This document shows, piece after piece, positions 21,354 to 39,132 of a stretch of 64,000 nucleotides of DNA (position 1 is its first letter; each line of letters opens with the position of its first letter). The stretch comes from Methylophilaceae bacterium (GTDB taxonomy: Bacteria; Pseudomonadota; Gammaproteobacteria; Burkholderiales; Methylophilaceae). The notes below the pieces were generated by a model that was not told the DNA's origin, did no database searches, and worked only from the letters and a program-made list of their open reading frames with translations. Both the position numbers and the translations under genes were made by a program. Where the stretch lies: contig JAOMKM010000002.1 in the NCBI GenBank assembly GCA_028351715.1, positions 1 through 64,000 on the forward strand. The letters run 5' to 3'.

Positions 21354-22505
21354 ATGAAAAATTACTTATTTACATCCGAATCTGTTTCTGAAGGCCATCC
21401 TGACAAAGTATCTGATCAAATCTCAGATGCTATTTTGGATGCTATTCTAAAACAAGACCCTCTAGCTAGAGTGGCAGCAGAGACATTAACTGCAACTAAT
21501 CTTGTAGTTTTAGCTGGAGAAATAACTACAACAGCAAAAGTCGATTACGAGAAGATTACGAGAGATACTTTACAGTCAATTGGATATGACAATGAAGATT
21601 ATGGAATTGATTATAAAAGTTGTGAGGTAGTTATTAAATATGGAGAGCAATCTCCTGATATTGCTCAAGGAGTCGATGGCGCAATGGATGAACCGTTGGA
21701 CCAAGGAGCTGGCGACCAAGGATTAATGTTTGGCTATGCCTGTAATGAAACAGATGTTCTTATGCCCTTACCTATATCTTTGGCACATCGCTTAGTTGAA
21801 AGACAGGCAATGTTAAGAAAGGATGGTCGACTAACATGGCTGAGACCAGATGCTAAATCTCAAGTAACAATAGAATATAAGAATAATAAGCCAGCCCGAA
21901 TTGATACAGTTGTGCTGTCAACGCAACATTCTCCAGAAATCACATTAAAGGATTTAAGGGAATCTGTAATTGAAGAAATTATTATTCCAATTTTACCAAA
22001 AGAATTAATTGAAGGAGACATTAAATTTCTAATTAACCCTACTGGAAGATTTGTTATTGGAGGCCCTCAAGGAGACTGTGGATTAACAGGAAGAAAAATT
22101 ATTGTAGATACATATGGGGGCTCTGCGCCTCATGGAGGCGGAGCATTTTCTGGTAAAGATCCAACGAAAGTTGATCGATCAGCAGCTTATGCTGCTCGCT
22201 ACGTTGCTAAAAATATTGTTGCAGCAGGTCTCGCAGAAAAATGTTTGGTACAAATTTCATATGCAATTGGTGTTGCAAAACCAACATCAGTGATGGTAGA
22301 TACTTTTGGAACTAGCAAGCTTAGCGGCGAGAAAATTTCAAGTATGGTTATAGAAAATTTTGATTTAAGGCCTAGGGGAATCGTTAAAATGCTTGATTTA
22401 TTAAGACCAATTTACAGAAAAACTGCTGCTTATGGTCATTTTGGTAGAGATGAACCTGAATTTACTTGGGAAAATTTAGATAAGAAAATACAGCTTCAGG
22501 AATAA
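21354..22505 (+). CDS. metK: S-adenosylmethionine synthetase
   Basis: [52 protein letters not shown]. Confidence 0.99.
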
Positions 22506-22554
22506 AAAATTCTATCTATTTGTTTTTTATACTAATTTATATTAGAATTTACCC

Positions 22555-22621
22555 TTCCAAGGAACGCTGCGAGAAATATTCCCAGGCTTGGAATACAATT
22601 TAATTTGTAAACTGCGTTCAC
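22555..22621 (+). promoter_or_regulatory. S-adenosylhomocysteine (SAH) riboswitch
   Basis: TTCCAAGGAACGCTGCGAG...CCCAGGCTTGGAA...AACTGCGTTCAC; P1 TTCCAAG/CTTGGAA, P2 GAACGC(TG)C and pseudoknot GGAACGC/GCGTTC pairing options; directly upstream of ahcY. Confidence 0.9.
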
Positions 22622-22630
22622 TAATTTTCT

Positions 22631-22687
22631 GTGCCAGTCGCAGGATATTAGGTGAACCTGATATCCCACTGGTCACATTTATTTTTT
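22631..22687 (+). terminator. Long imperfect hairpin plus U-rich tract between SAH riboswitch and ahcY; possible expression platform
   Basis: GTGCCAGT/ACTGGtCAC lower stem and GGATATTAGG-TGAA-type loop-CCTGATATCC upper stem, then ATTTATTTTTT ending at the ahcY SD. Confidence 0.6.
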
Positions 22688-22693
22688 AAGGAA

Positions 22694-24121
22694 ATGAAAA
22701 TGAATACAGTGACTGAACCAAAACTATCTAATCAAGATTATATTATTGCGGACATTACCCAAGCAGGTTTTGGCCGAAAAGAAATTGCAATAGCCGAAAC
22801 AGAAATGCCTGGTCTAATGGCAATTCGTACAGAATATGCAAGTAAAAAACCATTAAAAGGAGCCCGAATTTCTGGCTCGCTTCATATGACTATTCAAACA
22901 GCTGTTCTAATTGAAACACTAAATGAATTAGGTGCTGATGTTCGATGGGCTTCTTGCAATATTTATTCAACTCAAGATCATGCTGCCGCAGCAATTGCTG
23001 AGGGTGGAACGCCAGTTTTTGCTTTTAAGGACGAAAGTCTTGACGAGTATTGGGATTTTACGCATCGTATTTTTGAATGGCCAGAAGAAAAATTTACAAA
23101 TATGATTCTTGATGATGGAGGTGATGCAACTCTTCTACTTCATCTTGGAGTTAAAGCAGAGAAAGATATCTCTGTTTTGGATAAACCATCCACTGAAGAA
23201 GAAGTTTGTTTATTTAACGCTATTAAAAATAAACTAAAAATAAATTCATCTTGGTATTCTGAAAGATTGCCTCAGGTTCAAGGGGTAACAGAAGAAACTA
23301 CGACGGGTGTTATGCGTCTTTATCAAATGTTTAGAGATAATGAATTAGCATTCCCTGCAATCAATGTAAATGATTCAGTAACTAAGTCAAAATTTGATAA
23401 TTTATATGGATGCAGAGAGTCTTTAGTAGATGCTATTAAGAGAGCAACTGATGTAATGATTGCTGGTAAGGTTGCAGTAGTTTGTGGATATGGTGATGTC
23501 GGAAAGGGTTCAGCCCAAGCCTTAAGAGCTTTGTCAGCTCAGGTATGGGTAACGGAAGTAGATCCAATATGCGCACTGCAAGCAGCTATGGAAGGTTATC
23601 GTGTAGTTACTATGGAATATGCCGCTAAATATGCTGATATTTTTGTATCTGCAACAGGGAATTACAACGTTATTAATCATGAACATATGAAGGCAATGAA
23701 GGACCAAGCTATCGTATGTAATATTGGACACTTCGATAATGAAATTGATGTTGCCTCATTATCAGAATATAAATGGGAAGAAATAAAGCCACAAGTTGAC
23801 CATGTAATTTTCCCAGATAATAAACGTATTATTCTTTTAGCAAAAGGTCGTCTGGTTAACCTCGGATGTGGGACAGGCCATCCAAGTTACGTTATGGGGT
23901 CTTCTTTTGCTAATCAGGTGATTGCTCAAATAGAACTATTTTCTGAGAAAGATAAATATCCTCTCGGCGTTCATGTGCTGCCTAAACATTTAGATGAAAA
24001 AGTAGCGAGATTACAATTAACTACACTAAATGCTGACTTAACAACGCTAACTGAAGAACAAGCAAAATATATTGATGTGGATATTAACGGACCATTTAAA
24101 ACTGATACATATCGGTATTAA
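22694..24121 (+). CDS. ahcY: Adenosylhomocysteinase
   Basis: [47 protein letters not shown]-terminal KTDTYRY; start at 22694 or 22700. Confidence 0.99.
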
Positions 24122-24126
24122 TCAAT

Positions 24127-24961
24127 ATGTCTAATTCACCATCAGTAAGTTTTGAATTTTTTCCTCCTCGCACTGAGGAGGGAGATCTTAAGCTTAATGA
24201 AACAATAAAAACATTATCGCAATTTAACCCAGAGTTCTTTTCCGTTACTTTTGGTGCTGGAGGTTCAACTAAGACTAAAACGTTAGAAACAGTTTTAAGT
24301 ATTGAAGCTTCAAATAATAATGGAGTGCCTCATCTATCTTGCATTAGCTCTTCAAAAGAAGATATTAGAAGCATCTTAAGTGAATATAAGAGCCATGATA
24401 TTAAACATTTAATTGCCCTAAGAGGAGATAACCCATCAGGAGCAACAAGCCATGGAGATTTTAAATATGCTAATGAGCTAATCTCTTTCATAAGGGAGGA
24501 AACAGGAGAATATTTCCATATTCAAGCCGGCGCATATCCTGAATATCACCCAGAAGCAGAGTCTGCGACTGATGATTTAAATAATTTTAAAAGAAAAATA
24601 GAAGCTGGAGCAAATTCAGCAATCACACAGTTTTTTTTTCAATGTGGATGCTTATTTTAAATTTATAGAGGAATGTCAGAAAAAATCTATTAATGTACCT
24701 ATTATTCCAGGAATTATGCCTATCTATAATATAAAGCAACTATCAAGATTTTCATCTAATTGTGGAGCAGAAATACCAAGATGGTTAAGGCTAAAACTTG
24801 AAAGTTATGGGGATGATATTGTTTCTCTTAGAGCTTTCGGGGTTGATGTGATATCAGAGTTATGTGAAAAATTAATTCAGTACGGGGTGCCTGGAATTCA
24901 TTTTTACACACTTAATGAGTCCGGTACAATTACCAAAATAATTAATAATATTAAAAATTAA
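24127..24961 (+). pseudogene. metF: Methylenetetrahydrofolate reductase, single frameshift at a T9 run (two ORFs: 24127-24660 and 24644-24961)
   Basis: ORF 1 ends ...ITQFFFQCGCLF*; ORF 2 resumes ...VDAYFKFIEECQKKS; expected ITQFFFNVDAYF is restored by deleting one T from the T9 run at 24631-24639. Confidence 0.85.
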
Positions 24962-25419
24962 TGCAAGCTCAAATTTTCTTTTTGGTAAAGCGCATCTTCA
25001 ACAAATAGATAATCATTTTCTCGGCCATTGTTCCATAAAGCCATCATAACAATCCATCTAACCTCATCAATTGAAATAATGTTATGACTTAATGCCATTG
25101 CACGATCAATTATAATCTCTCGTTCTATAGAATTGAGAACTTTTGCTTGCTCCAGAAATAATATGAATCCTAAACCATCGCAGGCAATTTTTTCTAATTC
25201 GGACTCGGTAAATATTCTTAACTTATCATTAGCTTCTAATTCGGAATTAAGGGGTATTTTATCAGCCATTAATTTTAATTGCGCAAACCAATCAAATGCT
25301 TTCTGAATCTCGTCGTTATCAAAACCTGCAGCTTCTAACTCTTGTGTCATGTTATTAAAATCTAATTGATTTTGAGAGCTAAGGTAGTTTTCGAACATAT
25401 AAATTAGTAGATCAAACAT
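24958..25419 (-). CDS. smg: Smg family protein (DUF494)
   Basis: MFDLLIYMFENYL, AGFDNDEIQKAFDWFAQL. Confidence 0.88.
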   Translation of the reverse strand: MFDLLIYMFENYLSSQNQLDFNNMTQELEAAGFDNDEIQKAFDWFAQLKLMADKIPLNSELEANDKLRIFTESELEKIACDGLGFILFLEQAKVLNSIEREIIIDRAMALSHNIISIDEVRWIVMMALWNNGRENDYLFVEDALYQKENLSLH

Positions 25420-26095: not shown

Positions 26096-27058
26096 ATGAA
26101 TAAAATTCTAAAAATTATATTTGCAGGAACTCCTGAATTTTCAGTTCCAACTTTATTGGCATTAAATACTGCTTATTCTAATGTCACATATGTTCTTACT
26201 CAGCCTGATAAAAAGTCAGGCAGAGGAATGAAACAATTACACAGCCCAGTAAAGAAAATAGCATCAAGTCTAAAAATTCCTACATTTCAACCCATTTCAT
26301 TGAAGGGTAATGAGATATATGAAACTCTGGAGGCATGTAACGCAGATATTCTAATTGTAGTGGCTTATGGGTTAATTATACCTAAGAAAATTTTAGCCTT
26401 ATTTCCTATGGGATGCTATAACGTTCATGCATCATTACTACCTAGATGGAGAGGCGCAGCCCCAATACATAGGGCAATTGAGTCTGGGGACAAGGCTGTA
26501 GGAGTTACCATTATGAAGGTTGTTGAAAAGTTAGATGCAGGACCAATGTTAACTAGTAAAAGTATAGCTCTAGGTAAAAATATGACGACTGGAGAGGTCA
26601 CAAAGAGTTTGGCAGATATAGGTGCAGAGCTAATGAGCCAAATAGTTTTTTCTCTTCAAAAAAAAGAAACAATATCTATTGTTGAACAAAATGAATCACT
26701 AGTTACATATGCTGAGAAAATAAGTAAAACAGAGGCGCGTATAAATATGAGTTACTCCCCTGAAATAATTATAAGAAAGATTAATTCATTAAATCCCTAC
26801 CCAGGAGCCTCAATTATATTTAGAGAGAAAATTCTAAAAATATGGGGAGCAAAATTAATTGAAAATAAAGATGAAAAAAAACAAGTCAATAAGCAGATTA
26901 ACATCGGAAATTTATATACATATAATGAAGAGTTGTTCCTAAAATTAGGAAATGGAGCAATTAAAATAATGGAATTACAGCCTGAAGGTAAAAATAAGAT
27001 GGATGCAAAATCATTTATCAGGGGCTATAAGATAATTAAAATTGAGAAGATTAATTGA
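26096..27058 (+). CDS. fmt: Methionyl-tRNA formyltransferase
   Basis: FAGTPEFSVPTLLAL, NVHASLLPRWRGAAPIHRAI. Confidence 0.98.
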   Translation: MNKILKIIFAGTPEFSVPTLLALNTAYSNVTYVLTQPDKKSGRGMKQLHSPVKKIASSLKIPTFQPISLKGNEIYETLEACNADILIVVAYGLIIPKKILALFPMGCYNVHASLLPRWRGAAPIHRAIESGDKAVGVTIMKVVEKLDAGPMLTSKSIALGKNMTTGEVTKSLADIGAELMSQIVFSLQKKETISIVEQNESLVTYAEKISKTEARINMSYSPEIIIRKINSLNPYPGASIIFREKILKIWGAKLIENKDEKKQVNKQINIGNLYTYNEELFLKLGNGAIKIMELQPEGKNKMDAKSFIRGYKIIKIEKIN

Positions 27059-28338
27059 TGCAAAATTCACAACTTTTGTCAGCAAAAGTTTTAGAAAAGC
27101 TACTTAGTGGATCAAATCTAGATAAAAGTTTTGATGTAGTTTTTAGCAGTAATAAAAATAACAACATAGAAATACAAGAGTCTCAAATTAAAGCATTAAC
27201 CTATGGCTCAGCAAGATTTCTTGGTAAATCAAGATTCATAATAAATCAATTAGTAAAAAATAAGATAGAAAATAAGACCGTTGAATGTTTAATTCACATT
27301 GCACTTTATCAGTTATCTCAAGAAAAATTTAATAACTTTACAATAGTTAACCAGGCAGTGGATGCAGCAAAAAAAATTGATTTTAGAAAAAGTAAATTTG
27401 TAAATGCAATATTAAGAAATTATTTAAGAAGCAAGGATGATTTACAAGAATTATTAAACCAAGACCAGGCTGCTAAATACAGCTATCAAAATTGGTGGGT
27501 CAATAAAGTTAGAAATGAATTTAAGAAAGATTGGGAACAAATACTTGAAATTGGAAATCAGCATCCTCCACTAACTCTTAGGGTAAATAAAAAATTAATT
27601 AGTATTGAAAAATATAGTGAGGTTCTAATGAGAAATGGTATCGACCATCAAATAATTTCAAACACAGGGCTCATCATTAAGAATCCTCTTAATATAAATG
27701 ATATTCCTGGATTTATAGAAGGTCATATTTCAGTTCAGGACTTCGGGGCACAAATTGCAACAGAATTATTAGATGTTAAGAAGGAGCAAAAAATATTAGA
27801 TGCATGTGCAGCTCCGGGAGGTAAAACTTGTAATATTCTCGAGTCTAATAATGTAGCTGTTACGTCCCTAGAAATTGATGAGTTAAGAGCCAATAAAATT
27901 AGGGAGAATCTAAAACGATTAGGTCTTGAAGCAAATGTAATTCATGGCGCATTATCTAATGATAATTTATGGTGGGATGGTGGGCATTTTGATCGAATAT
28001 TATTAGATGTACCTTGTTCAGCATCGGGAATTGTAAGAAGACACGTAGATATAAAATGGCTCAGACAGATGCACGATTTGAAGAAATTTTCAGAGAAGCA
28101 ATATCTATTAGTTAGATCAGCATGGCCCTTATTGAAGTCTGGAGGAAAATTACTTTATGTTACATGCTCAATATTTAGCGATGAGAATAGAGATGTGATT
28201 GAAAGATTCAAACAAGAATTTTCGGATGCAAAGGAAATTGATTTAATATATCCAAATAAAGTTAAACATATAAGGAATCAACTGATTCCCTCAAAAAATC
28301 ATGATGGATTATTTTATGCGTTACTTAAAAAAAATTAG
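27055..28338 (+). CDS. rsmB: 16S rRNA (cytosine-967-C5)-methyltransferase
   Basis: LDACAAPGGKTCNILE, LDVPCSASGIVRRHVDIKW, VTCSIFSDEN. Confidence 0.95.
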   Translation: MMQNSQLLSAKVLEKLLSGSNLDKSFDVVFSSNKNNNIEIQESQIKALTYGSARFLGKSRFIINQLVKNKIENKTVECLIHIALYQLSQEKFNNFTIVNQAVDAAKKIDFRKSKFVNAILRNYLRSKDDLQELLNQDQAAKYSYQNWWVNKVRNEFKKDWEQILEIGNQHPPLTLRVNKKLISIEKYSEVLMRNGIDHQIISNTGLIIKNPLNINDIPGFIEGHISVQDFGAQIATELLDVKKEQKILDACAAPGGKTCNILESNNVAVTSLEIDELRANKIRENLKRLGLEANVIHGALSNDNLWWDGGHFDRILLDVPCSASGIVRRHVDIKWLRQMHDLKKFSEKQYLLVRSAWPLLKSGGKLLYVTCSIFSDENRDVIERFKQEFSDAKEIDLIYPNKVKHIRNQLIPSKNHDGLFYALLKKN

Positions 28339-28876
28339 TAATAAATTAGTTCTAATATGGATGATTTTATTTTCAATTCATGCATATTCGATTGAGCAAA
28401 AAATTGAAATTAGTGATATTAAGTTAGATTTTAAGGAGGGACATTACTTTGTAAGTTATTCACAGTCAATAACACTGCTCTCAGAAGCAAAAGAAGCGTT
28501 AAGTAAAGGGATTCCCTTTAAATTTTTAGTGACAGCAAAAATTTCACAAAAAAATAAATATGGACTTAATAGTCTTATATTGTATAAAATTTTTTACTTT
28601 CAATTGAAGTATAAAAGTTTGCTTCAAAAGTATATGGTAAGTGACATGAATGACCAAAAGAGTTATTTTAGTAATATTGATGATGCCATTATGAGGCTAT
28701 CATATATAGAAAAATGGGATATTGGCCCTAGCAATAATTTAAAGGAGGGTACTTTGGAGTTGAAAGCTAAATTAGATAAGAAGTATTTACCAAAAGCGCT
28801 ACAAATTAATTTTAATAAAAAATCATGGGATGTGGAGTCTGAGATAACAAAATATGAGATAGGTAAATTAAATTGA
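28301..28876 (+). CDS. DUF4390 domain-containing protein
   Basis: Position between rsmB and ntrY; signal peptide; pattern of family. Confidence 0.75.
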   Translation: MMDYFMRYLKKISNKLVLIWMILFSIHAYSIEQKIEISDIKLDFKEGHYFVSYSQSITLLSEAKEALSKGIPFKFLVTAKISQKNKYGLNSLILYKIFYFQLKYKSLLQKYMVSDMNDQKSYFSNIDDAIMRLSYIEKWDIGPSNNLKEGTLELKAKLDKKYLPKALQINFNKKSWDVESEITKYEIGKLN

Positions 28877-30987
28877 GATATGTAATCACTACAGTTGCTT
28901 TTATTGGGATAGCGCTACTAATTTTATTAGCTAAATCTCTATCAAATGCTGAATTAGTTTCTAGTGATACATTTAGGCTGTTATTAATTTTTAATATAGT
29001 TTTTGTATGTGCATTAATAGTTCTTATTACAATCCAAATAGCAAAATTACTCCAAAATGTTAAAAAAGAAATTTTAGGAAGTCGATTAACAATGAGGCTT
29101 GTTTTATCATTTGCAACTGTTGTTATTATTCCAGTAACGATAGTTTATTTAGTATCTGTAAGTTTTTTAACGAAGTCAATTGAGTCATGGTTTAATGTTC
29201 AAGTAGAATCAGCCCTCCAAGGAGGGTTGAGTCTTGGTCAGAAAACACTGGATATTTTATTAAAAGATATTGAATTGAAATCTAAAAGTTTGGCTTATTC
29301 TATTGGTGCAGCTGAGGAATCATCAACAACTGAAATACTTAATGACTTGAGGGAGAAATTTTCTATCCAAGAGGCAGTAATATTTGACTCAAATTCTAAA
29401 ATACTTAATGTGTCAGGAGACTATAATACTCTTCCACTACCAGCACTCCCAAAACAAGAAGATTTAATAAGAGCTTCAGAGGGTTTCTTTGGAAAAATTG
29501 AAGAAGTAGATGGAAAAATCTTCATGAAAGCATACGTTCCAATTCCTAGTAAAGAACTAATAAAATCAGAAAAAATAATTCAGATAACTCAGCCAATTCC
29601 TGAATCGATTTCAGATATAGCATTATCAGTTGAATCAGTATACGAAGATTATCAAACGCTTGCATACAGTCGAAGTTCACTAAAAATAATATACACAATG
29701 ACATTGACACTAGTTCTTTTGCTTGCAATTCTATCAGCGGTTGCTGCATCTTTTGTAATAAGCCGGAGAATCTCTAAACCAATATCATTATTAGCCGAAG
29801 CAACAAGGCAAATAGCAAAGGGAAAATATAATAAAACAATCCCAGAAAATAGTAGAGATGAGCTAGGTCTTCTAGTTATGTCATTTAACAGCATGACAAT
29901 GAAGCTAAATGATGCCACAAAGAGTTCGCAAAAGAGTAGAGAAAGATTAGAAATTGCGAGAGCTTTTCTAGACAAAATACTAACTAACCTATCCTCAGGT
30001 GTAATTGTAATAGACAAGGATGGCGTGATTAAACTTCATAATATTACAGCATCAAAAATAATTGAATTTAAAAAAATAGATATGACTAATATAAAATTTA
30101 CAAATGATATATCTAAGAATAAAATATATGAACCAATCATACAAAAAATTAATAGAATTATTTTAGCGAAGAAAATTGTAAAAGAACAGAGTTTTGAATT
30201 TAATACTAATAATAAGAATAATGAAGAAATAATTCGAGTTCAAATAACTCCATTGAAAAGAGAAAAAAATATTTCTTATATATTAGTTATCGATGATATA
30301 ACTGAATTAACTAAGGGACAGAGAAATCAAGCATGGTCTGAAATTGCAAGAAGATTAGCACATGAAATAAAAAATCCTCTCACTCCAATTCAATTATCTG
30401 CTGAAAGAATTGAACATAAGTTAAAAGATAAGCTTAGCAATGAGGACCTAATAATGCTAAGAAAATCAACTGCAACTATAGTTAATCAGGTATTCGCATT
30501 AAAGACTATGGTAAATGAGTTCTCGGAATACTCAAGACCCCCAGAGAGAAAAATAAAAGCATTTAATCTATTTGAACTGTTTGAAAATATTATTGAGTTA
30601 TACCAAGCAACTAAAATTAAAATTATACTTAAAGCAACAAATAATAAGATATCAATAAAGGCTGATGAGAATAAGATCCGACAAGTTATTATTAATTTGA
30701 TTGAAAATGCAAAGGATGGCCTAATAAAAGAAAATAAACCTGAGCTTATTATAAATATAACTGATGATAATAAATGGATTACATTCATAATAAAAGATAA
30801 TGGAATGGGAATATCTGAAGAGCTAATGGGGAGAATATTTGAACCATATGTAACCTCAAAAAAAAATGGAACTGGTCTTGGACTTGCAATCGTAAATAAA
30901 ATTATAGAAGAACATTCAGGAATAATTGAAATTATGAAAAATAAAGTTAAGGGAACTTGTGTTTCAGTAAGGTTACCTAAATTATAA
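28873..30987 (+). CDS. ntrY: NtrY-like sensor histidine kinase
   Basis: TM N-terminus, HAMP, ARRLAHEIKNPLTPIQLSAERI H-box, INLIENAKDG N-box, GTGLGLAIVNKI. Confidence 0.9.
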   Translation: MRYVITTVAFIGIALLILLAKSLSNAELVSSDTFRLLLIFNIVFVCALIVLITIQIAKLLQNVKKEILGSRLTMRLVLSFATVVIIPVTIVYLVSVSFLTKSIESWFNVQVESALQGGLSLGQKTLDILLKDIELKSKSLAYSIGAAEESSTTEILNDLREKFSIQEAVIFDSNSKILNVSGDYNTLPLPALPKQEDLIRASEGFFGKIEEVDGKIFMKAYVPIPSKELIKSEKIIQITQPIPESISDIALSVESVYEDYQTLAYSRSSLKIIYTMTLTLVLLLAILSAVAASFVISRRISKPISLLAEATRQIAKGKYNKTIPENSRDELGLLVMSFNSMTMKLNDATKSSQKSRERLEIARAFLDKILTNLSSGVIVIDKDGVIKLHNITASKIIEFKKIDMTNIKFTNDISKNKIYEPIIQKINRIILAKKIVKEQSFEFNTNNKNNEEIIRVQITPLKREKNISYILVIDDITELTKGQRNQAWSEIARRLAHEIKNPLTPIQLSAERIEHKLKDKLSNEDLIMLRKSTATIVNQVFALKTMVNEFSEYSRPPERKIKAFNLFELFENIIELYQATKIKIILKATNNKISIKADENKIRQVIINLIENAKDGLIKENKPELIINITDDNKWITFIIKDNGMGISEELMGRIFEPYVTSKKNGTGLGLAIVNKIIEEHSGIIEIMKNKVKGTCVSVRLPKL

Positions 30988-30989
30988 TT

Positions 30990-32231
30990 ATGACAAAAGC
31001 TAAAATACTAATTATTGATGATGAAAAAGATATAAGAGAATCATTATCAGATATTCTCAAGGATGAAGGTTATGAAATAGTTGTAGCTGAAAATGCAGTT
31101 AAGGCTAAAGAAATTAAAAGTAACCTTCGCTTCGATCTAATTCTGTTAGATATTTGGATGCCTGATTGTGATGGTATATCACTTTTAAAACAATGGGCTA
31201 AAGATAAAGAGATTAATTGCCCAGTTATAATGATGTCGGGGCATGGAACTATTGACACCGCTATAGAAGCAACGAAGATTGGAGCGTTTGATTTTCTAGA
31301 AAAACCAATTTCGCTCCAAAAATTACTAAAAACAATAACCTTGGCATTAAAAAAATCTATTCATATAAATAAATTAGATGTAAGTTTTATTACAGATATT
31401 GAAAGTCCAATTATTAAGGTATTAAGGGAAAGATTAAAAGATTTAAAAAAAGAAAGCTTGGTACTTATTGAAGGTGAAGAAGGTAATTTTTCAAATATAT
31501 GTATTGAATTCTTACTAGGAAATAATTTCATTACATATGATCCAAAAAATAAACTAGATTCATATCTAATAAATAAAATCCAGGAGAAAGGTAAAACTGC
31601 TCTTTTAATTAAAACCCTAGATAATTTATCGCATTATGATCCATCTGAGCTAAGAGCTGTAATAAAGTTACTAATTAATAAAAAAATTAAAGTCGTTATT
31701 CTAGATAAAAACATAAATACAATAAAAACATTAGTAGCTAATGAATGGATTTTTTCAGATTATTACTTTAAAATTCCAATAGATAAAGATTCAGATTTGA
31801 TATCTGAATATTCAAATTTAATATTAAATTATTATCTTTCAAAAAATATTAATATTGGTTATAAAGAATTTGATACATCTGCCGTAAATTTAATGAGACT
31901 TAACCCTAACTTCCTTAACATTGATTTTTTAGATCAATTTATTGTTACTTTAATTCAGAATACTGATGTAGAAACAATCACGGCAGATGATTTTGATTTC
32001 CTACAACCCTCAGATACAGTTAAGAATTTAACAACTAAAGATTCAGACTTGGTTGTTGATGAAGGTTTATATAATTTAGACTTTAGGGAAGCTAGAGAAA
32101 AGTTTGAAAAAAGATACTTTGAATTTCATATAAATTCTAAAATATCAATCACTGACTTATCAAAAAAATCAGGAGTTGAGAGAACACACTTGTATAGAAA
32201 ATTAAAGCAACTTAAGGTTAATATTAAATAA
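30990..32231 (+). CDS. ntrX: NtrX-like response regulator with degenerate central AAA+ domain
   Basis: Intact receiver (IIDDEKDIRESLSDIL, LLDIWMPDCDGISLLKQW) and Fis-like HTH (ITDLSKKSGVERTHLYRKLKQL); Walker A and GAFTGA not found. Confidence 0.82.
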   Translation: MTKAKILIIDDEKDIRESLSDILKDEGYEIVVAENAVKAKEIKSNLRFDLILLDIWMPDCDGISLLKQWAKDKEINCPVIMMSGHGTIDTAIEATKIGAFDFLEKPISLQKLLKTITLALKKSIHINKLDVSFITDIESPIIKVLRERLKDLKKESLVLIEGEEGNFSNICIEFLLGNNFITYDPKNKLDSYLINKIQEKGKTALLIKTLDNLSHYDPSELRAVIKLLINKKIKVVILDKNINTIKTLVANEWIFSDYYFKIPIDKDSDLISEYSNLILNYYLSKNINIGYKEFDTSAVNLMRLNPNFLNIDFLDQFIVTLIQNTDVETITADDFDFLQPSDTVKNLTTKDSDLVVDEGLYNLDFREAREKFEKRYFEFHINSKISITDLSKKSGVERTHLYRKLKQLKVNIK

Positions 32232-32234
32232 TTA

Positions 32235-33011
32235 TTAAAGTTCTGTTACTACTGGAGTATGGTCAGATGGTCGCTCTAATTTTCTAGGTTCTTTATCGAT
32301 GTATGACTTTGTGACTTTTGGCATTATATTTTTTGATACTAGAATATGGTCTATCCTCATTCCTAGGTTTCTTCTAAACCCTGCCATACGATAATCCCAC
32401 CATGAAAATTCTTGGTTATTTGGATTAATTTCTCTGTAGGAATCATGGAAGCCAATGTTAAGAATACCATTGAAGGCTTTTCTTTCTTTAGTTGAAACGA
32501 GGATTTGGCCAATCCAGGCATCCGGATCATGACAGTCTTTGTTTTCTGGGGCAATGTTGAAATCACCGGTTAATATGATTTCATCATATTGATTCGTAAG
32601 CTCTGTTACCCATTTCGAAAATTTATTTAGCCAGCTCATTTTATAAATAAATTTATCAGAGCCAACTGTTTGTCCATTTGGAACGTATGCGGATACAATA
32701 TAAATTTTATCATTAGAATCGCTAATCCATAATCCCGATATAATTCTCTTTTGGGGATCATCAAAATCTGGAAGATCAAAATTAATATCTATTAATTTAT
32801 TCTTGGAGATTATGGCTACTCCATTATAGGTTTTTTGACCATTATGGTATGAGTGGTAACCAATTGTGCTAAATGCATCATGATCAAATTTGTCGTTAAC
32901 TTGTTTTGTCTCTTGTAGGCATAAAATATCAGGCTGATGCTTTACTACCCAATCAATAACGTGAGAAAGTCTTACGTTTAATGAATTTACGTTCCACGTT
33001 GCTATCTTCAA
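32235..33011 (-). CDS. xthA: Exodeoxyribonuclease III
   Basis: MKIATWNVNSLNVRL, LCLQETKQ, GDFNIAPE, RMDHILVS-type (MRIDHILVSKN), PSDHTPVV. Confidence 0.96.
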   Translation of the reverse strand: MKIATWNVNSLNVRLSHVIDWVVKHQPDILCLQETKQVNDKFDHDAFSTIGYHSYHNGQKTYNGVAIISKNKLIDINFDLPDFDDPQKRIISGLWISDSNDKIYIVSAYVPNGQTVGSDKFIYKMSWLNKFSKWVTELTNQYDEIILTGDFNIAPENKDCHDPDAWIGQILVSTKERKAFNGILNIGFHDSYREINPNNQEFSWWDYRMAGFRRNLGMRIDHILVSKNIMPKVTKSYIDKEPRKLERPSDHTPVVTEL

Positions 33012-33015
33012 TTTT

Positions 33016-35049
33016 TTAATTTAACCCAGAATGTTTAAGAAGAGCATCAATTGTTGGCTCCCGACCTCGAAAGGCAATAAATGAGTCAAGAGCAGGTCTT
33101 GACCCGCCCCGCCCTAAAATTTCTTTCCTGAAAGTTCTTCCAACAAGGGGGGAAATTACACCATTTTCTTCGAATAGGCTGTATGCATCAGCAGAGAGAA
33201 CTTCTGCCCATTTGTAACTGTAGTATCCTGCAGCGTAGCCACCAGAAAATATATGAGCAAAACTATGTGGAAATCTATTCCATGAAGGGGGTTTAATAAC
33301 TGCAATTTTGTTTCTTATATCTTCTAAAATACCCATGACATTATTTGAAGAAGAATCATATGTACTATGTAAAATTATATCAAATAAAGCGAATTCAACC
33401 TGTCTTAATGTTTGCATTCCAGATTGAAAATTTTTCGATAAGTATAGTTTGTCGAATAGTGACTTTGGCATAGGAGATTTAGTTAAGGAATGTTCTGACA
33501 TACTTTGAACAACTGACCACTCCCAACAAAAATTTTCCATAAACTGACTTGGTAGTTCAACAGCATCCCATTCAACCCCCTTAATTCCAGAAACGCTATA
33601 TTCTTCAATTTCAGTAAGTAAATGATGAAGTCCATGTCCAAATTCATGAAATAAGGTAATTACTTCATCATGAGTGAATGTTGATGAAGTATTATTTACA
33701 GGAGGTGAGAAATTACAAGTCAAGTAAGCTACAGGTAATGATGATTCTTCCAAAAACTTATATTTTGAGATAGCCTCATCCATCCAGGCACCTCCCCGCT
33801 TGTTCTTTCTGGCATATAAATCTAGGTAAAATTGTCCAAGTAAATTATTTTTTTCATCTTTAATTTCATAGAACTCAACAAGATTGTTCCAAGTGTCAGC
33901 CTTTTTTGGGGTTATATAAATGCTGTAAATTTTCTCAACAATATTAAAAAGACCGGTAAGGACCTTATGTTTAGGAAAATAGTTTTTTATTTCCTGATCA
34001 GAAAAATTAAATCTTTGCTGTTTAATTTTTTCAGAAAAATAAGCTATATCCCATGCCTCTATATCTTTTATTCCATTTTTAAATGCTTCATTTGTTAAAT
34101 CAAGCATATCTTTTCTTGCAAATGACTTTGCTTTTAAAGCTAAATCATATAAAAATTTTGTAACATCATTACTAGATTTTGCCATTTTAGTTTCTAATGA
34201 CATGGAGGCATAATCAGAATAATTAAGCATTTTAGCTAGTTTAGATTTTAGAGTTAAAATATCATTAATAATTTTTGTATTATCTAATAGTGGTTCACCT
34301 AGATCAGATGCCTTTGTTGCGTATGCATGATACATTTCTTTTCTTAACTCACGGTCATCTGCATATTGTAAGGTTGGTATATAACAAGGAAAGTCTAAGG
34401 TAAATAACCAGCCGTCTAATTTTTTTTGCTTGGCATTATTTTTTACCATAGCAATAATGTCTTCGGGCAACCCTTTAATTTTTATAGGGTCAGTAACATG
34501 AAGTTGAAAATTATTTGTTGCATCTAGAAGATTCTCTTCAAATTTAGAGGTCAGTGAAGAGAGCTCTTCCTTAATTTTCTTGAATTCTTTTTTTTTGTCA
34601 GTAGGTAGGCCAACCCCCCCAAGTTTGAAGCCGATTAATTCATCATCAACAACTTTTTTCCTTGCATCATTAAATGATTTATATTCTAAAGAATTCTTAA
34701 GTTGTTTAAATTTTTTATAAATTATTTCATTTTGTGATATTTCTGAGTAATAATTTGTAATCTTCAGAAAATTTTTATTGTACTCGTCCCTCAAATCCTT
34801 ATTATTTACTACTGCATTCAAATGACTTACCTGAGACCACGATCTACTTAGCTTCTCATCACATTTTTGTAAGGGTTCTACAAAGTTTTCCCATAATAAT
34901 TTTTCTGAAAGATTTTCAATTTCTAATATTAGTCTCCTATTATCATCCAATATTATGTCAATAGCAGGTGTAATATGTTCGGGCTTAATTTGAGAGAATA
35001 AAGGTAGAAAATTTCTTACGAGTAAAGGGTTGTTAGCTTTATTATTCAT
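33016..35049 (-). CDS. prlC: Oligopeptidase A (M3 family)
   Basis: LFHEFGHGLHHLLT zinc motif; 677 aa. Confidence 0.95.
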   Translation of the reverse strand: MNNKANNPLLVRNFLPLFSQIKPEHITPAIDIILDDNRRLILEIENLSEKLLWENFVEPLQKCDEKLSRSWSQVSHLNAVVNNKDLRDEYNKNFLKITNYYSEISQNEIIYKKFKQLKNSLEYKSFNDARKKVVDDELIGFKLGGVGLPTDKKKEFKKIKEELSSLTSKFEENLLDATNNFQLHVTDPIKIKGLPEDIIAMVKNNAKQKKLDGWLFTLDFPCYIPTLQYADDRELRKEMYHAYATKASDLGEPLLDNTKIINDILTLKSKLAKMLNYSDYASMSLETKMAKSSNDVTKFLYDLALKAKSFARKDMLDLTNEAFKNGIKDIEAWDIAYFSEKIKQQRFNFSDQEIKNYFPKHKVLTGLFNIVEKIYSIYITPKKADTWNNLVEFYEIKDEKNNLLGQFYLDLYARKNKRGGAWMDEAISKYKFLEESSLPVAYLTCNFSPPVNNTSSTFTHDEVITLFHEFGHGLHHLLTEIEEYSVSGIKGVEWDAVELPSQFMENFCWEWSVVQSMSEHSLTKSPMPKSLFDKLYLSKNFQSGMQTLRQVEFALFDIILHSTYDSSSNNVMGILEDIRNKIAVIKPPSWNRFPHSFAHIFSGGYAAGYYSYKWAEVLSADAYSLFEENGVISPLVGRTFRKEILGRGGSRPALDSFIAFRGREPTIDALLKHSGLN

Positions 35050-35062
35050 ATAATCCTATATT

Positions 35063-36787
35063 TTATTTATTAATGTCTTGAATTAGGCTTTCAATATTAT
35101 CAGGCTCAATTGATCTTAGTATTTTATTTGCTTTTATTTTTATCTTTTTTGGATCTGAACTTAAAACTTGTTTTTTAACAGTTAGCATACTTGTAGGGTG
35201 CATTGAAAAGTTTGTTAATCCCATTCCAAGAAGTAATTTTGTTAATTTAGGATCGCCTGCCATTTCACCGCATATTGATACCTCTTTATTATATTTCATA
35301 CCAGCTTTAATGGTGTTATCTATTAATCTAAGAACTGCTGAGTGAAGGGAATTATATAAATGGGAAACACTATCATCAGTCCGATCAATAGCAAGTGTAT
35401 ATTGCACTAAATCATTTGTGCCAATTGATAAAAAATCTAATTCATTCGCAAACATATCAGCGTTAATAGCAACTGCTGGAACTTCAATCATCCCTCCTAC
35501 CAGAATCTTATTATTAAACTTTATTTTAGAATTTTTAAGAGATTGTTTTGCTCTTTCAATTAACATTTTTGTTTGTCTTAATTCTTGTAGTGAAGAAAGC
35601 ATGGGTATAAGAATTCTTATATTACCAAACGCTGATGCTCTAAGAATTGCTTTTAATTGTGTAGTAAATAGATGTGGTTCAGATAAGCAAAGCCTAATTG
35701 CACGTAAACCCAGTGCAGAATTATTTTTGTTATTATTATCTACATCAATATTTTTATCTGCACCTGAATCAAGTGTCCTTATAACCACTGGAAGCTTACC
35801 CATAGATTTAGTAACTGATTTATAAATATTAAATTGCTCTTCTTCATCAGGAAGTGATGATCTATTCATAAATAGAAATTCAGTTCGAAATAAGCCAATG
35901 CCGTCACCATTATTTTCTTTAACAGATTTAATATCTTCTGGTACCTCAATATTTGCAAGAAGAGTTATTGTTTGATTTCCTAAAGTCTTGCACTTAACAT
36001 TTCTAATTTTTATTAGTTTTTTCTGTTCTATTTCCCAAAGATTCTGTTTGTATTGGTATTCCTCAAGAATGGCAGAACTAGGATTAATAATAACAATACC
36101 TTGATTGCCATCAACAATTAACGTGTCATTATTTTTGATTAATTTCTTTGCATTTTTTAGAGCAACAATTGATGGAATATTTAAGCTCCTAGCCAAAATT
36201 GCTGTATGAGAATTAGCCCCCCCCATTTCTGTAATAAATGCACCATATTTATGATTTTTGAACTGGAGTGTATCTGCTGGAGATATATCTTGAGCTACTA
36301 GTATCACAGAACTTTCATTTTTAAAATTTATTTTCTGCTTTCTATGCCCTAAAAGAACTTTTATAACCCTCTCAGCAACCTGAACTACATCATGTTTTCG
36401 CTCTTTAATATATGGATCTTCTATTTGGTTAAACTTATCAATAATTAGATCAAGTTGAATCTTGATTGCCCACTCTGCATTACATTTCTCATCTTTAATA
36501 GTTTGAGCTGGCTCATCTGATATATTACTATCACTTAGCAACATCAAATGAGTATCTATAAATGGTGCAAATTGTGAATTAGAATCAAGTAATAGTCGTT
36601 TCTTAATCCGGATTAATTCATTTTTTACTGTTAATAATGCCTTTTTAAATCTCTTAACCTCAAAATCAATTTTTTTAGTTTTAATATCGTAACGAACAAC
36701 TTCAAGCAAGGCATTTGAGATTAAATGTGATGTGCCAATAGCAATACCATTTGATACTGGTACACCATGGATATTAAAAGATACCAT
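35063..36787 (-). CDS. ptsI: PTS enzyme I
   Basis: GGANSHTAILARSLNIPSI, GIGLFRTEFLFM, DFLSIGTNDLVQYTLAIDR. Confidence 0.95.
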   Translation of the reverse strand: MVSFNIHGVPVSNGIAIGTSHLISNALLEVVRYDIKTKKIDFEVKRFKKALLTVKNELIRIKKRLLLDSNSQFAPFIDTHLMLLSDSNISDEPAQTIKDEKCNAEWAIKIQLDLIIDKFNQIEDPYIKERKHDVVQVAERVIKVLLGHRKQKINFKNESSVILVAQDISPADTLQFKNHKYGAFITEMGGANSHTAILARSLNIPSIVALKNAKKLIKNNDTLIVDGNQGIVIINPSSAILEEYQYKQNLWEIEQKKLIKIRNVKCKTLGNQTITLLANIEVPEDIKSVKENNGDGIGLFRTEFLFMNRSSLPDEEEQFNIYKSVTKSMGKLPVVIRTLDSGADKNIDVDNNNKNNSALGLRAIRLCLSEPHLFTTQLKAILRASAFGNIRILIPMLSSLQELRQTKMLIERAKQSLKNSKIKFNNKILVGGMIEVPAVAINADMFANELDFLSIGTNDLVQYTLAIDRTDDSVSHLYNSLHSAVLRLIDNTIKAGMKYNKEVSICGEMAGDPKLTKLLLGMGLTNFSMHPTSMLTVKKQVLSSDPKKIKIKANKILRSIEPDNIESLIQDINK

Positions 36788-37056
36788 TATTCACCTTCAT
36801 CGAAATAGTTTTTAAAAAGATTTTCAACTTCTTTAATTGCTATCTTCTCGTCCGACCCAGTTACCTGAAGTTCAACCTTTGAACCTATGCTAGCTGCTAG
36901 CATTAAAATATCCATAATATTTTTTGCATTTACTTTTTTGCTATCTTTTATTATAAATATTTCAGAGTCAAATTGTGACGCAAGCTGAGTAAGTTTGCTT
37001 GAAGCCCTGGCATGCAAACCTAACTTATTAATAATTTTTACTTCTTTTTTTATCAT
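36787..37056 (-). CDS. ptsH: HPr-family phosphocarrier protein (Asn at the Ser46 position)
   Basis: NKLGLHARASSKLTQL; VNAKNIMDILMLAA. Confidence 0.93.
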   Translation of the reverse strand: MIKKEVKIINKLGLHARASSKLTQLASQFDSEIFIIKDSKKVNAKNIMDILMLAASIGSKVELQVTGSDEKIAIKEVENLFKNYFDEGE

Positions 37057-37442
37057 TTATTATTCATTTTTATGATGCTTTCTTGAGCAGATTGCATACA
37101 TTTTCTTACAGTCTGAGAAAGAGATCCATCTCTATTTGTGATTGCCTGAACTAGCATTGGTAAATTAAGCCCTGTAATTACTTCAATACTATCTTGAGAG
37201 GTATATTTTTTCAGTATATTGCATGGAGTTGCCCCATAAATATCAGTTAAAATCAACACACCTGATCCTGTATCCAGGTTCTTTATTTCATTTTCAATAA
37301 ATTTTTCGCATTCTTGTAAATCACTTTTAGGATCTACCGGTATACACTCAAGGAAGTTGATAGATTTCCCAAGTATATTAGATGAACAATCTATAAGAGA
37401 TCTTCCTATCTGACCATGAGTAACTAAGAGTATACCAATCAT
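37053..37442 (-). CDS. PTS mannose-family EIIA component
   Basis: MIGILLVTHGQIGRSLIDCS, LTDIYGATPCN. Confidence 0.9.
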   Translation of the reverse strand: MIGILLVTHGQIGRSLIDCSSNILGKSINFLECIPVDPKSDLQECEKFIENEIKNLDTGSGVLILTDIYGATPCNILKKYTSQDSIEVITGLNLPMLVQAITNRDGSLSQTVRKCMQSAQESIIKMNNK

Positions 37443-37455
37443 TGTTATGTATTAT

Positions 37456-37779
37456 TTATTCCGATTTATTTTTTATTGAACCATCTGCCTTATGATGGTT
37501 TGCGTTTTTTTCTTTATATTTGATTACTTGCCGATCTAATTTCTGAATTACTATCTCAATTGCATGATACATGTTCTCGTCAGATGATTCAGCATGCATA
37601 TTGGCTTTTGGGAGGTGAATTGTTACATGAGCCTTATGATCTAGCCTCTCTAAGCTAAGAGTAAATTTTGCATCTATTAAATGATCAAAATGATTAGTAA
37701 TCCTTTTGAATTTATTTCTAACATACTGATCAATTGAGGGAGTAATTTCAAAATTATGAGCTTTAATTATTAAATTCAT
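37456..37779 (-). CDS. hpf: Ribosome hibernation promoting factor
   Basis: HNFEITPSIDQYVRNKFKRI, DHKAHVTIHLPKANMHAESSDENMYHAIE. Confidence 0.93.
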   Translation of the reverse strand: MNLIIKAHNFEITPSIDQYVRNKFKRITNHFDHLIDAKFTLSLERLDHKAHVTIHLPKANMHAESSDENMYHAIEIVIQKLDRQVIKYKEKNANHHKADGSIKNKSE

Positions 37780-37794
37780 TTATGGTTCCTTATA

Positions 37795-39132
37795 TTAATT
37801 TTTTCTTTGGTTAGAAGGTAAAATTTTTAATTTGCTTCTATATTTAGCAACCGTCCTCCTTGCTATATTAATACCCTGCTCCTTTAGCATCAAAACTATT
37901 TTTTCGTCAGAAAAAGGTTTTAGTGAGTTTTCGTCAATAATAATATCTTTTATTCTGCCTGAAATTGCCTTTGAGGATAATTCTTTTCTTAAACCTGACT
38001 TAATTTTTGTTCCAAAAAAATGCTTAAGCTCATAAATTCCGTGGGGGGTAAGAATAAACTTATTAGATGTTACTCTAGAAATTGTAGACTCATGTAGCTC
38101 TAATTCCTCTGCTATTTCTTTTAATATTAAGGGCCCTAAATATAACTCTCCTTTTTGCAGAAAGTCTTTTTGATGGTTCATAATAGCCCGAGAAACTCTT
38201 AGGATAGTTATTGAGCGCTCCTGTAAATTTTTAATTAGCCACTTAGCCTCTTGAAATTTTTCCTTTAAAACTTTCACTGCATCAGACGGTAAATCCTTAA
38301 AATAATTTTCATGTTCATTAGTTATCCTCAATCTAAATAACTCGTCTTCATTAACATAAACTTCCCACTTACCATTTTCATTCACTACGGTAACATCTGG
38401 CTTTATATAATCATTTATATCATTCTTCTTGAAAGCATTTCCTGGCTTGGGATTTAGTGCTGTAATAATTTCAATTGCTTTATCTAAATTATCTCGAGAG
38501 CAGCTTAGTTTCTTTATTAAATCTTCATAGTTTCTATTGGCTAGTAGATTCAAATGATTTATAACGATAGATTTAGAAATTTTAATAATTTCATTTTTAT
38601 TTTCAATAATATTTAATTGAGAATATAAGCATTCGGATAAATCTCTTGCCCCAATGCCTGGGAAGGAAGAATTTTGAATATGTTTTATCAAGCCTTCTAA
38701 TTCTTTTATCTCAACTTTTGGTTCTACATTGATATCACTTATAAGTGATTGATAGGTTTCAGTTAAGTAGCCCTCATCATTAATTGCATCAATTAAAAAG
38801 GAAAAAATTATTTGTTGTCGTTCGGAAAAAGAAAAAATACTTAAATTATCAATCAAATATTCCTTTAAGGTTTCATTTTTTACTTGATTCTCGAAAATAT
38901 TATAGTACTCATCTGCTGAGCCTTTTAAACCGTTTTTATTTTGTTTATTTTTAGCTGAGGACCTTATATGACTGTAATTTTCTTCTTGTTCAAGAAAAAT
39001 ATTGTCATTTAAGTATTCTTCGAGTAATTGATCTAATTCAGCTTGTGATGCCTGCAGAAATCTTAAGGATTGCTGAAGAAGGGGAGTGAGCTTAAGAGAC
39101 TGTGAAAGTTTTAAGTTATAACTTAATTTCAT
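37795..39132 (-). CDS. rpoN: RNA polymerase sigma-54 factor
   Basis: N-terminal LKLSQSLKLTPLLQQSLRFLQ; RpoN box ARRTVAKYR. Confidence 0.97.
   Translation of the reverse strand: MKLSYNLKLSQSLKLTPLLQQSLRFLQASQAELDQLLEEYLNDNIFLEQEENYSHIRSSAKNKQNKNGLKGSADEYYNIFENQVKNETLKEYLIDNLSIFSFSERQQIIFSFLIDAINDEGYLTETYQSLISDINVEPKVEIKELEGLIKHIQNSSFPGIGARDLSECLYSQLNIIENKNEIIKISKSIVINHLNLLANRNYEDLIKKLSCSRDNLDKAIEIITALNPKPGNAFKKNDINDYIKPDVTVVNENGKWEVYVNEDELFRLRITNEHENYFKDLPSDAVKVLKEKFQEAKWLIKNLQERSITILRVSRAIMNHQKDFLQKGELYLGPLILKEIAEELELHESTISRVTSNKFILTPHGIYELKHFFGTKIKSGLRKELSSKAISGRIKDIIIDENSLKPFSDEKIVLMLKEQGINIARRTVAKYRSKLKILPSNQRKN

Follow-up and report, generated by a model that had tools for sequence, protein, structure and literature searches.

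The closest described relatives of the regulator treated here are the NtrX (PlrR) proteins of Betaproteobacteria, represented by PlrSR of Bordetella and NtrYX of Herbaspirillum and Neisseria. They are ~410-430 residues long, are encoded in a conserved rsmB-plrP-ntrY-ntrX block and have lost both the Walker A Lys and GAFTGA. PlrP has been described as a third partner in the NtrYX system; in Bordetella, phosphorylated PlrR is indispensable, and PlrP works together with PlrS (PMC13001219). The same paper states that betaproteobacterial NtrX lacks the AAA+ domain (PMC13001219, citing Bonato et al., 2016), and the want of a working ATPase in this group is to that extent already known. GAFTGA is missing from Caulobacter NtrX as well (PMC10274813). 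The alphaproteobacterial NtrX of Brucella abortus has the same three-domain order as the protein described here, and its GAFTGA region is replaced. However, it is ~40 residues longer, retains a Walker A Lys (GPSGAGKE), and its crystal structures contain ATP and ADP (5m7n, 5m7o, 5m7p).

The window, a stretch of 64,000 nucleotides from a Methylophilaceae genome, carries on its forward strand an open reading frame (30990..32231) for a 413-residue response regulator of the betaproteobacterial NtrX type (ntrX/plrR), as judged from the reading frame, a Response_reg match and the relatives. A receiver (residues 1-121; 30990..31352), a middle domain (residues 125-345; 31362..32024) and a C-terminal Fis-like helix-turn-helix (HTH; residues 358-413; 32061..32228) follow one another. 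The gene lies directly 3' of ntrY/plrS (28873..30987), which encodes the partner sensor histidine kinase with NtrY_N, HAMP, PAS, HisKA and HATPase_c domains. Upstream, also on the forward strand, are an intact gene for a plrP-like periplasmic DUF4390 protein (28301..28876; PF14334, 99 bits) and rsmB (27055..28338), whose position 5' of the plrP-ntrY-ntrX genes is syntenic in the genus and the family. Because it sits in this block, the organisation given in PMC13001219, the gene is recognised as the PlrR/NtrX of Betaproteobacteria, and full-length matches (33-39% over residues 1-413 to Dechloromonas, Chromobacterium, Nitrosomonas and others) likewise indicate orthology. The NCBIfam equivalog for NtrX, NF051870, is the best NCBIfam match but scores only 142 bits over residues 4-170, below its curated cut-off of 600; it describes the 452-residue type. 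The genome is a draft (873 kb, 31 contigs, 68% complete), and its source is a marine OM43-like methylotroph, since the named relatives are Methylophilaceae metagenome-assembled genomes (MAGs) and isolates such as LSUCC0665.

The first-pass annotation regarded the receiver, the HTH and NtrY as intact, and this was borne out. All phosphotransfer residues are present in the receiver (D10, D11, E12, D54, S83 and K105), the ERTHLYRK motif of the HTH is invariant across the alignments, and NtrY contains HEIKNPL (at residue 497) and DNGMG. Identity to relatives is 60-89% in the receiver and 43-77% in the HTH.

The same annotation held the central region, with GEEGNFSN at the Walker A position, to be devoid of Walker A, Walker B and GAFTGA; Pfam, motif and alignment checks agree. 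Response_reg (108 bits) is the sole Pfam match of the whole protein, with none to Sigma54_activat, AAA or HTH_8 at E <= 0.01. Compared with NtrC-type AAA+ domains, the Walker A site reads IEGEEGNFSN, without the Lys of GxxxxGK, and the Walker B site reads ALLIKTLDNL, in which the acidic pair and the hhhhDE pattern do not occur. GAFTGA is gone together with ~30 surrounding residues, and WPGN is absent. Nevertheless, structure prediction, one of the checks that had been proposed, gives an AAA+ fold for the isolated domain (AlphaFold mean pLDDT 91.6, pTM 0.86). The nearest solved folds are the AAA+ domains of sigma-54 activators (NtrC1, FleQ and NtrX), at 10-17% identity and moderate TM-scores of about 0.5-0.6, and the full-length protein finds its best structural and profile matches in Brucella NtrX. 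As a single sequence the middle domain has no match among PDB sequences, whereas its family profile did reach AAA+ entries. The best profile match of degenerate type is 3co5, the middle domain of a Neisseria-type NtrX, presumably from Neisseria gonorrhoeae; it covers the N-terminal two thirds of the domain and is less degenerate than the window protein. Given that the fold is still confidently predicted, the domain is best modelled as a pseudo-ATPase rather than as a missing domain, and the wording "lacks the AAA+ domain" (PMC13001219) would be better replaced by retention of a dead AAA+ fold. In principle, a P-loop without its Lys might still bind nucleotide weakly.

These losses extend well beyond the window. 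Searching 41 genomes with the window NtrX gave a match in all of them, although some best matches are another receiver or a fragment, and a scan of named genomes provided 80 NtrX loci. Both the Walker A Lys and GAFTGA are absent from every NtrX in the alignment of genus and order; the alignment of relatives suggested at the outset as a check recovered neither in any betaproteobacterial orthologue examined. GAFTGA occurs in none of the 74 loci (of 80) that could be read by a simple motif rule. A P-loop of the GEPGTGK type is kept only in five gammaproteobacterial sequences (L136, L142, L143, L150 and L156), with Lys in three and Arg in two. These orthologues, ~456-472 residues long, resemble the window protein in having no GAFTGA but differ in the P-loop and, in some, a Walker B, and thus represent an intermediate stage. 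The sigma-54 interaction domain PF14532 matches 46 of 52 NtrX proteins and leaves the window protein unmatched; from the count, the six left without it are probably those that come from the window's genus. There, unlike in other betaproteobacterial NtrX, the P-loop glycines, Walker B and WPGN have disappeared and Pfam AAA+ models find nothing, which marks the OM43-like Methylophilaceae as carriers of the most decayed form. The alignments indicate that the loss is ancestral to Betaproteobacteria, as previously reported, and no oddity of the window copy. The simplest order would be an early loss of GAFTGA, then of the Lys and ~30-40 residues in Betaproteobacteria, then of nearly everything in the window's genus.

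Because the losses are present in every betaproteobacterial orthologue examined, they are due neither to chance nor to an artefact of one genome. A sequencing or assembly error in the window copy, which the draft state of the assembly might invite one to suspect, is accordingly hardly credible: independent genomes, single-contig ones included, share the architecture, and the NtrX of locus L079 matches it at 78% identity from end to end. Two segments of the window, 22479-24979 and 32979-37600, are ~96-99% identical to L079 at the nucleotide level against ~78-88% around them, with breakpoints that fall shortly after xth and shortly before rpoN; such mosaic similarity points to a recent event of homologous recombination, or else to a MAG that is chimeric. 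Elsewhere in the genus, ntrX and ntrC are each split into two frames in G013, and ntrC and rpoN are split in G046 (L014, G013:C1; L055/L056, G013 and G046); in these low-completeness MAGs, the splits are probably frameshift errors.

Degeneration on this scale could also mean that ntrX is a pseudogene on its way out of a streamlined genome, its middle domain drifting freely. Indeed, about one third of that domain is missing compared with NtrC, and it evolves much faster than the receiver (18-32% versus 58-74% identity to relatives beyond L079). However, in nine pairs analysed by NG86 counts, middle-domain dN/dS is 0.09-0.55, well below 1, with receiver values of 0.03-0.12 where computable; some values are rough because dS is near saturation. 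Between the window and L079, dN/dS is 0.05 for the receiver, 0.19 for the middle domain and 0.18 for the HTH. Purifying selection thus acts on all three domains, less strongly on the middle one than on the receiver. Moreover, the reading frame is open in all near-complete genomes, receiver and HTH are strongly conserved and every species keeps the operon. Decay toward a pseudogene is therefore very improbable, and dN/dS and the relatives together led to rejection of both the pseudogene and the artefact readings.

The remaining question is whether NtrX has kept any tie to sigma-54. As noted in the first-pass annotation, the window rpoN (37795..39132, reverse strand) is intact, with AID, CBD and DBD domains and the RpoN box ARRTVAKYR. 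Close to it, at 35063-37442, are genes for PTS EI and an EIIA-Man-like protein with no obvious sugar permease there, a PTS-Ntr-like regulatory remnant; this ptsI-IIA block is missing from G018 at the corresponding place. The neighbouring RpoN is not the partner of NtrX: the sigma-54 circuit of the genus is NtrC-glnA. NtrC, found by the proposed search for other GAFTGA-bearing activators, is a separate, normal sigma-54 activator that shares the receiver-AAA+-HTH order with NtrX but keeps GESGxGK, GAFTGA or GSFTGA, and LFLDEI. A -24/-12 element lies at ~-50 to -63 of glnA in 16 of the 21 genomes examined (shuffled upstream regions reach such a score with a probability of ~0.002). The idea that no further activator with GAFTGA exists in the window genome was rejected: its ntrBC falls in an assembly gap, since glnA and dgt, the ntrBC neighbours in relatives, are likewise missing from the incomplete assembly, and the nearest relative (G047) has an NtrC with GAFTGA.

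Two genomes of the genus, G014 and G024, have lost rpoN altogether. They are sisters with full support in the NtrY tree, and G014 is 94% complete in 3 contigs. Neither a genome search nor inspection of the syntenic place found the gene, which is cleanly deleted, leaving ~46 bp between lptB and hpf (positions 6019-6066 of L070, G014:C3:70000-89999; positions 13539-13587 of L072, G024:C40). Their NtrC proteins keep Walker A, with LFLSEI as Walker B in G014, but GIEGNVNAHND or GMETHASTDTQ replaces GYEKGAFTGA; GAFTGA or GSFTGA is present in the 20 remaining intact NtrC copies of the genus. Upstream of glnA, a TATAAT-like element takes the place of -24/-12, while NtrC-like TGCAC...GTGCA half-sites remain (loci L070, L072, L074 and L075), an apparent switch of the NtrC-glnA circuit from sigma-54 to sigma-70. 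The -24/-12 element is also missing from G016, G018 and G022 (L185, L177 and L183), which keep rpoN and a GAFTGA-bearing NtrC, a combination that points to further promoter rewiring in that clade.

Both ntrX and ntrY are retained in G014 and G024, with receiver and HTH intact and a middle-domain dN/dS of 0.09. Since ntrYX is kept under selection where rpoN is gone, NtrX works independently of sigma-54; of all the functional evidence, this carries the most weight. NtrX might nevertheless act at sigma-54 promoters without ATPase activity, for example as a repressor or as a helper co-assembling with NtrC; rpoN and GAFTGA-bearing NtrC do coexist in most of the genus, and mixed AAA+ rings are conceivable. 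That ntrX is held under similar constraint where rpoN is missing and NtrC has no GAFTGA makes such a role quite improbable as the general one: it may hold in some species, yet NtrX cannot depend on it.

Motif loss throughout the genus and the Betaproteobacteria, together with retention of ntrX in the absence of rpoN and the existence of NtrC as a separate activator with GAFTGA, thus supports the prediction of the first-pass annotation that the protein would be a phospho-switch DNA-binding protein unable to drive sigma-54 promoters by ATP hydrolysis. Taking in also the conserved receiver and HTH and the purifying selection, NtrX is most probably a DNA-binding protein that acts on sigma-70 promoters under the control of phosphorylation. 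Its pseudo-AAA+ domain descends from a sigma-54 activator ATPase and has kept the fold but lost the motifs for nucleotide binding, hydrolysis and sigma-54 contact. NtrY, modulated by PlrP, would phosphorylate D54; with the pseudo-AAA+ domain as a linker, this may alter how the protein forms dimers or larger assemblies, after which the HTH would bind operators at sigma-70 promoters, with activation or repression as the outcome.

Alternatively, the middle domain may have been put to a new use, sensing a ligand or a protein and so providing NtrX with a second input. It is under selection, folds confidently in prediction and differs strongly between two clades of the genus, as would suit a fast-evolving sensory or interface role, and its fold neighbours include VpsR, a degenerate bEBP (the PDB entry describes c-di-GMP binding). 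Yet no pocket residues are conserved, and the only invariant residues, P138, N175, R178 and L189, look structural; a sensing role is therefore unlikely. More broadly, and only tentatively, the pseudo-AAA+ domain of OM43-type NtrX could be more than a linker and form a new regulatory module, whether a ligand- or partner-binding unit or an assembly switch, that went on evolving under selection after the ATPase and sigma-54 functions were lost.

What is new is how far the decay has gone in this genus, the evidence from fold and selection that the domain is a pseudo-AAA+, and the RpoN-less sisters. A published remark is thereby extended to a staged picture, in which the loss of GAFTGA would have been followed by that of the P-loop lysine and finally by that of nearly all motifs, while the fold was kept. 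G014 and G024 offer a natural experiment on giving up sigma-54, in which the sigma factor, the contact loop of NtrC and the -24/-12 promoter of glnA were lost and NtrC and its upstream sites stayed; these species show that NtrX has no need of sigma-54.
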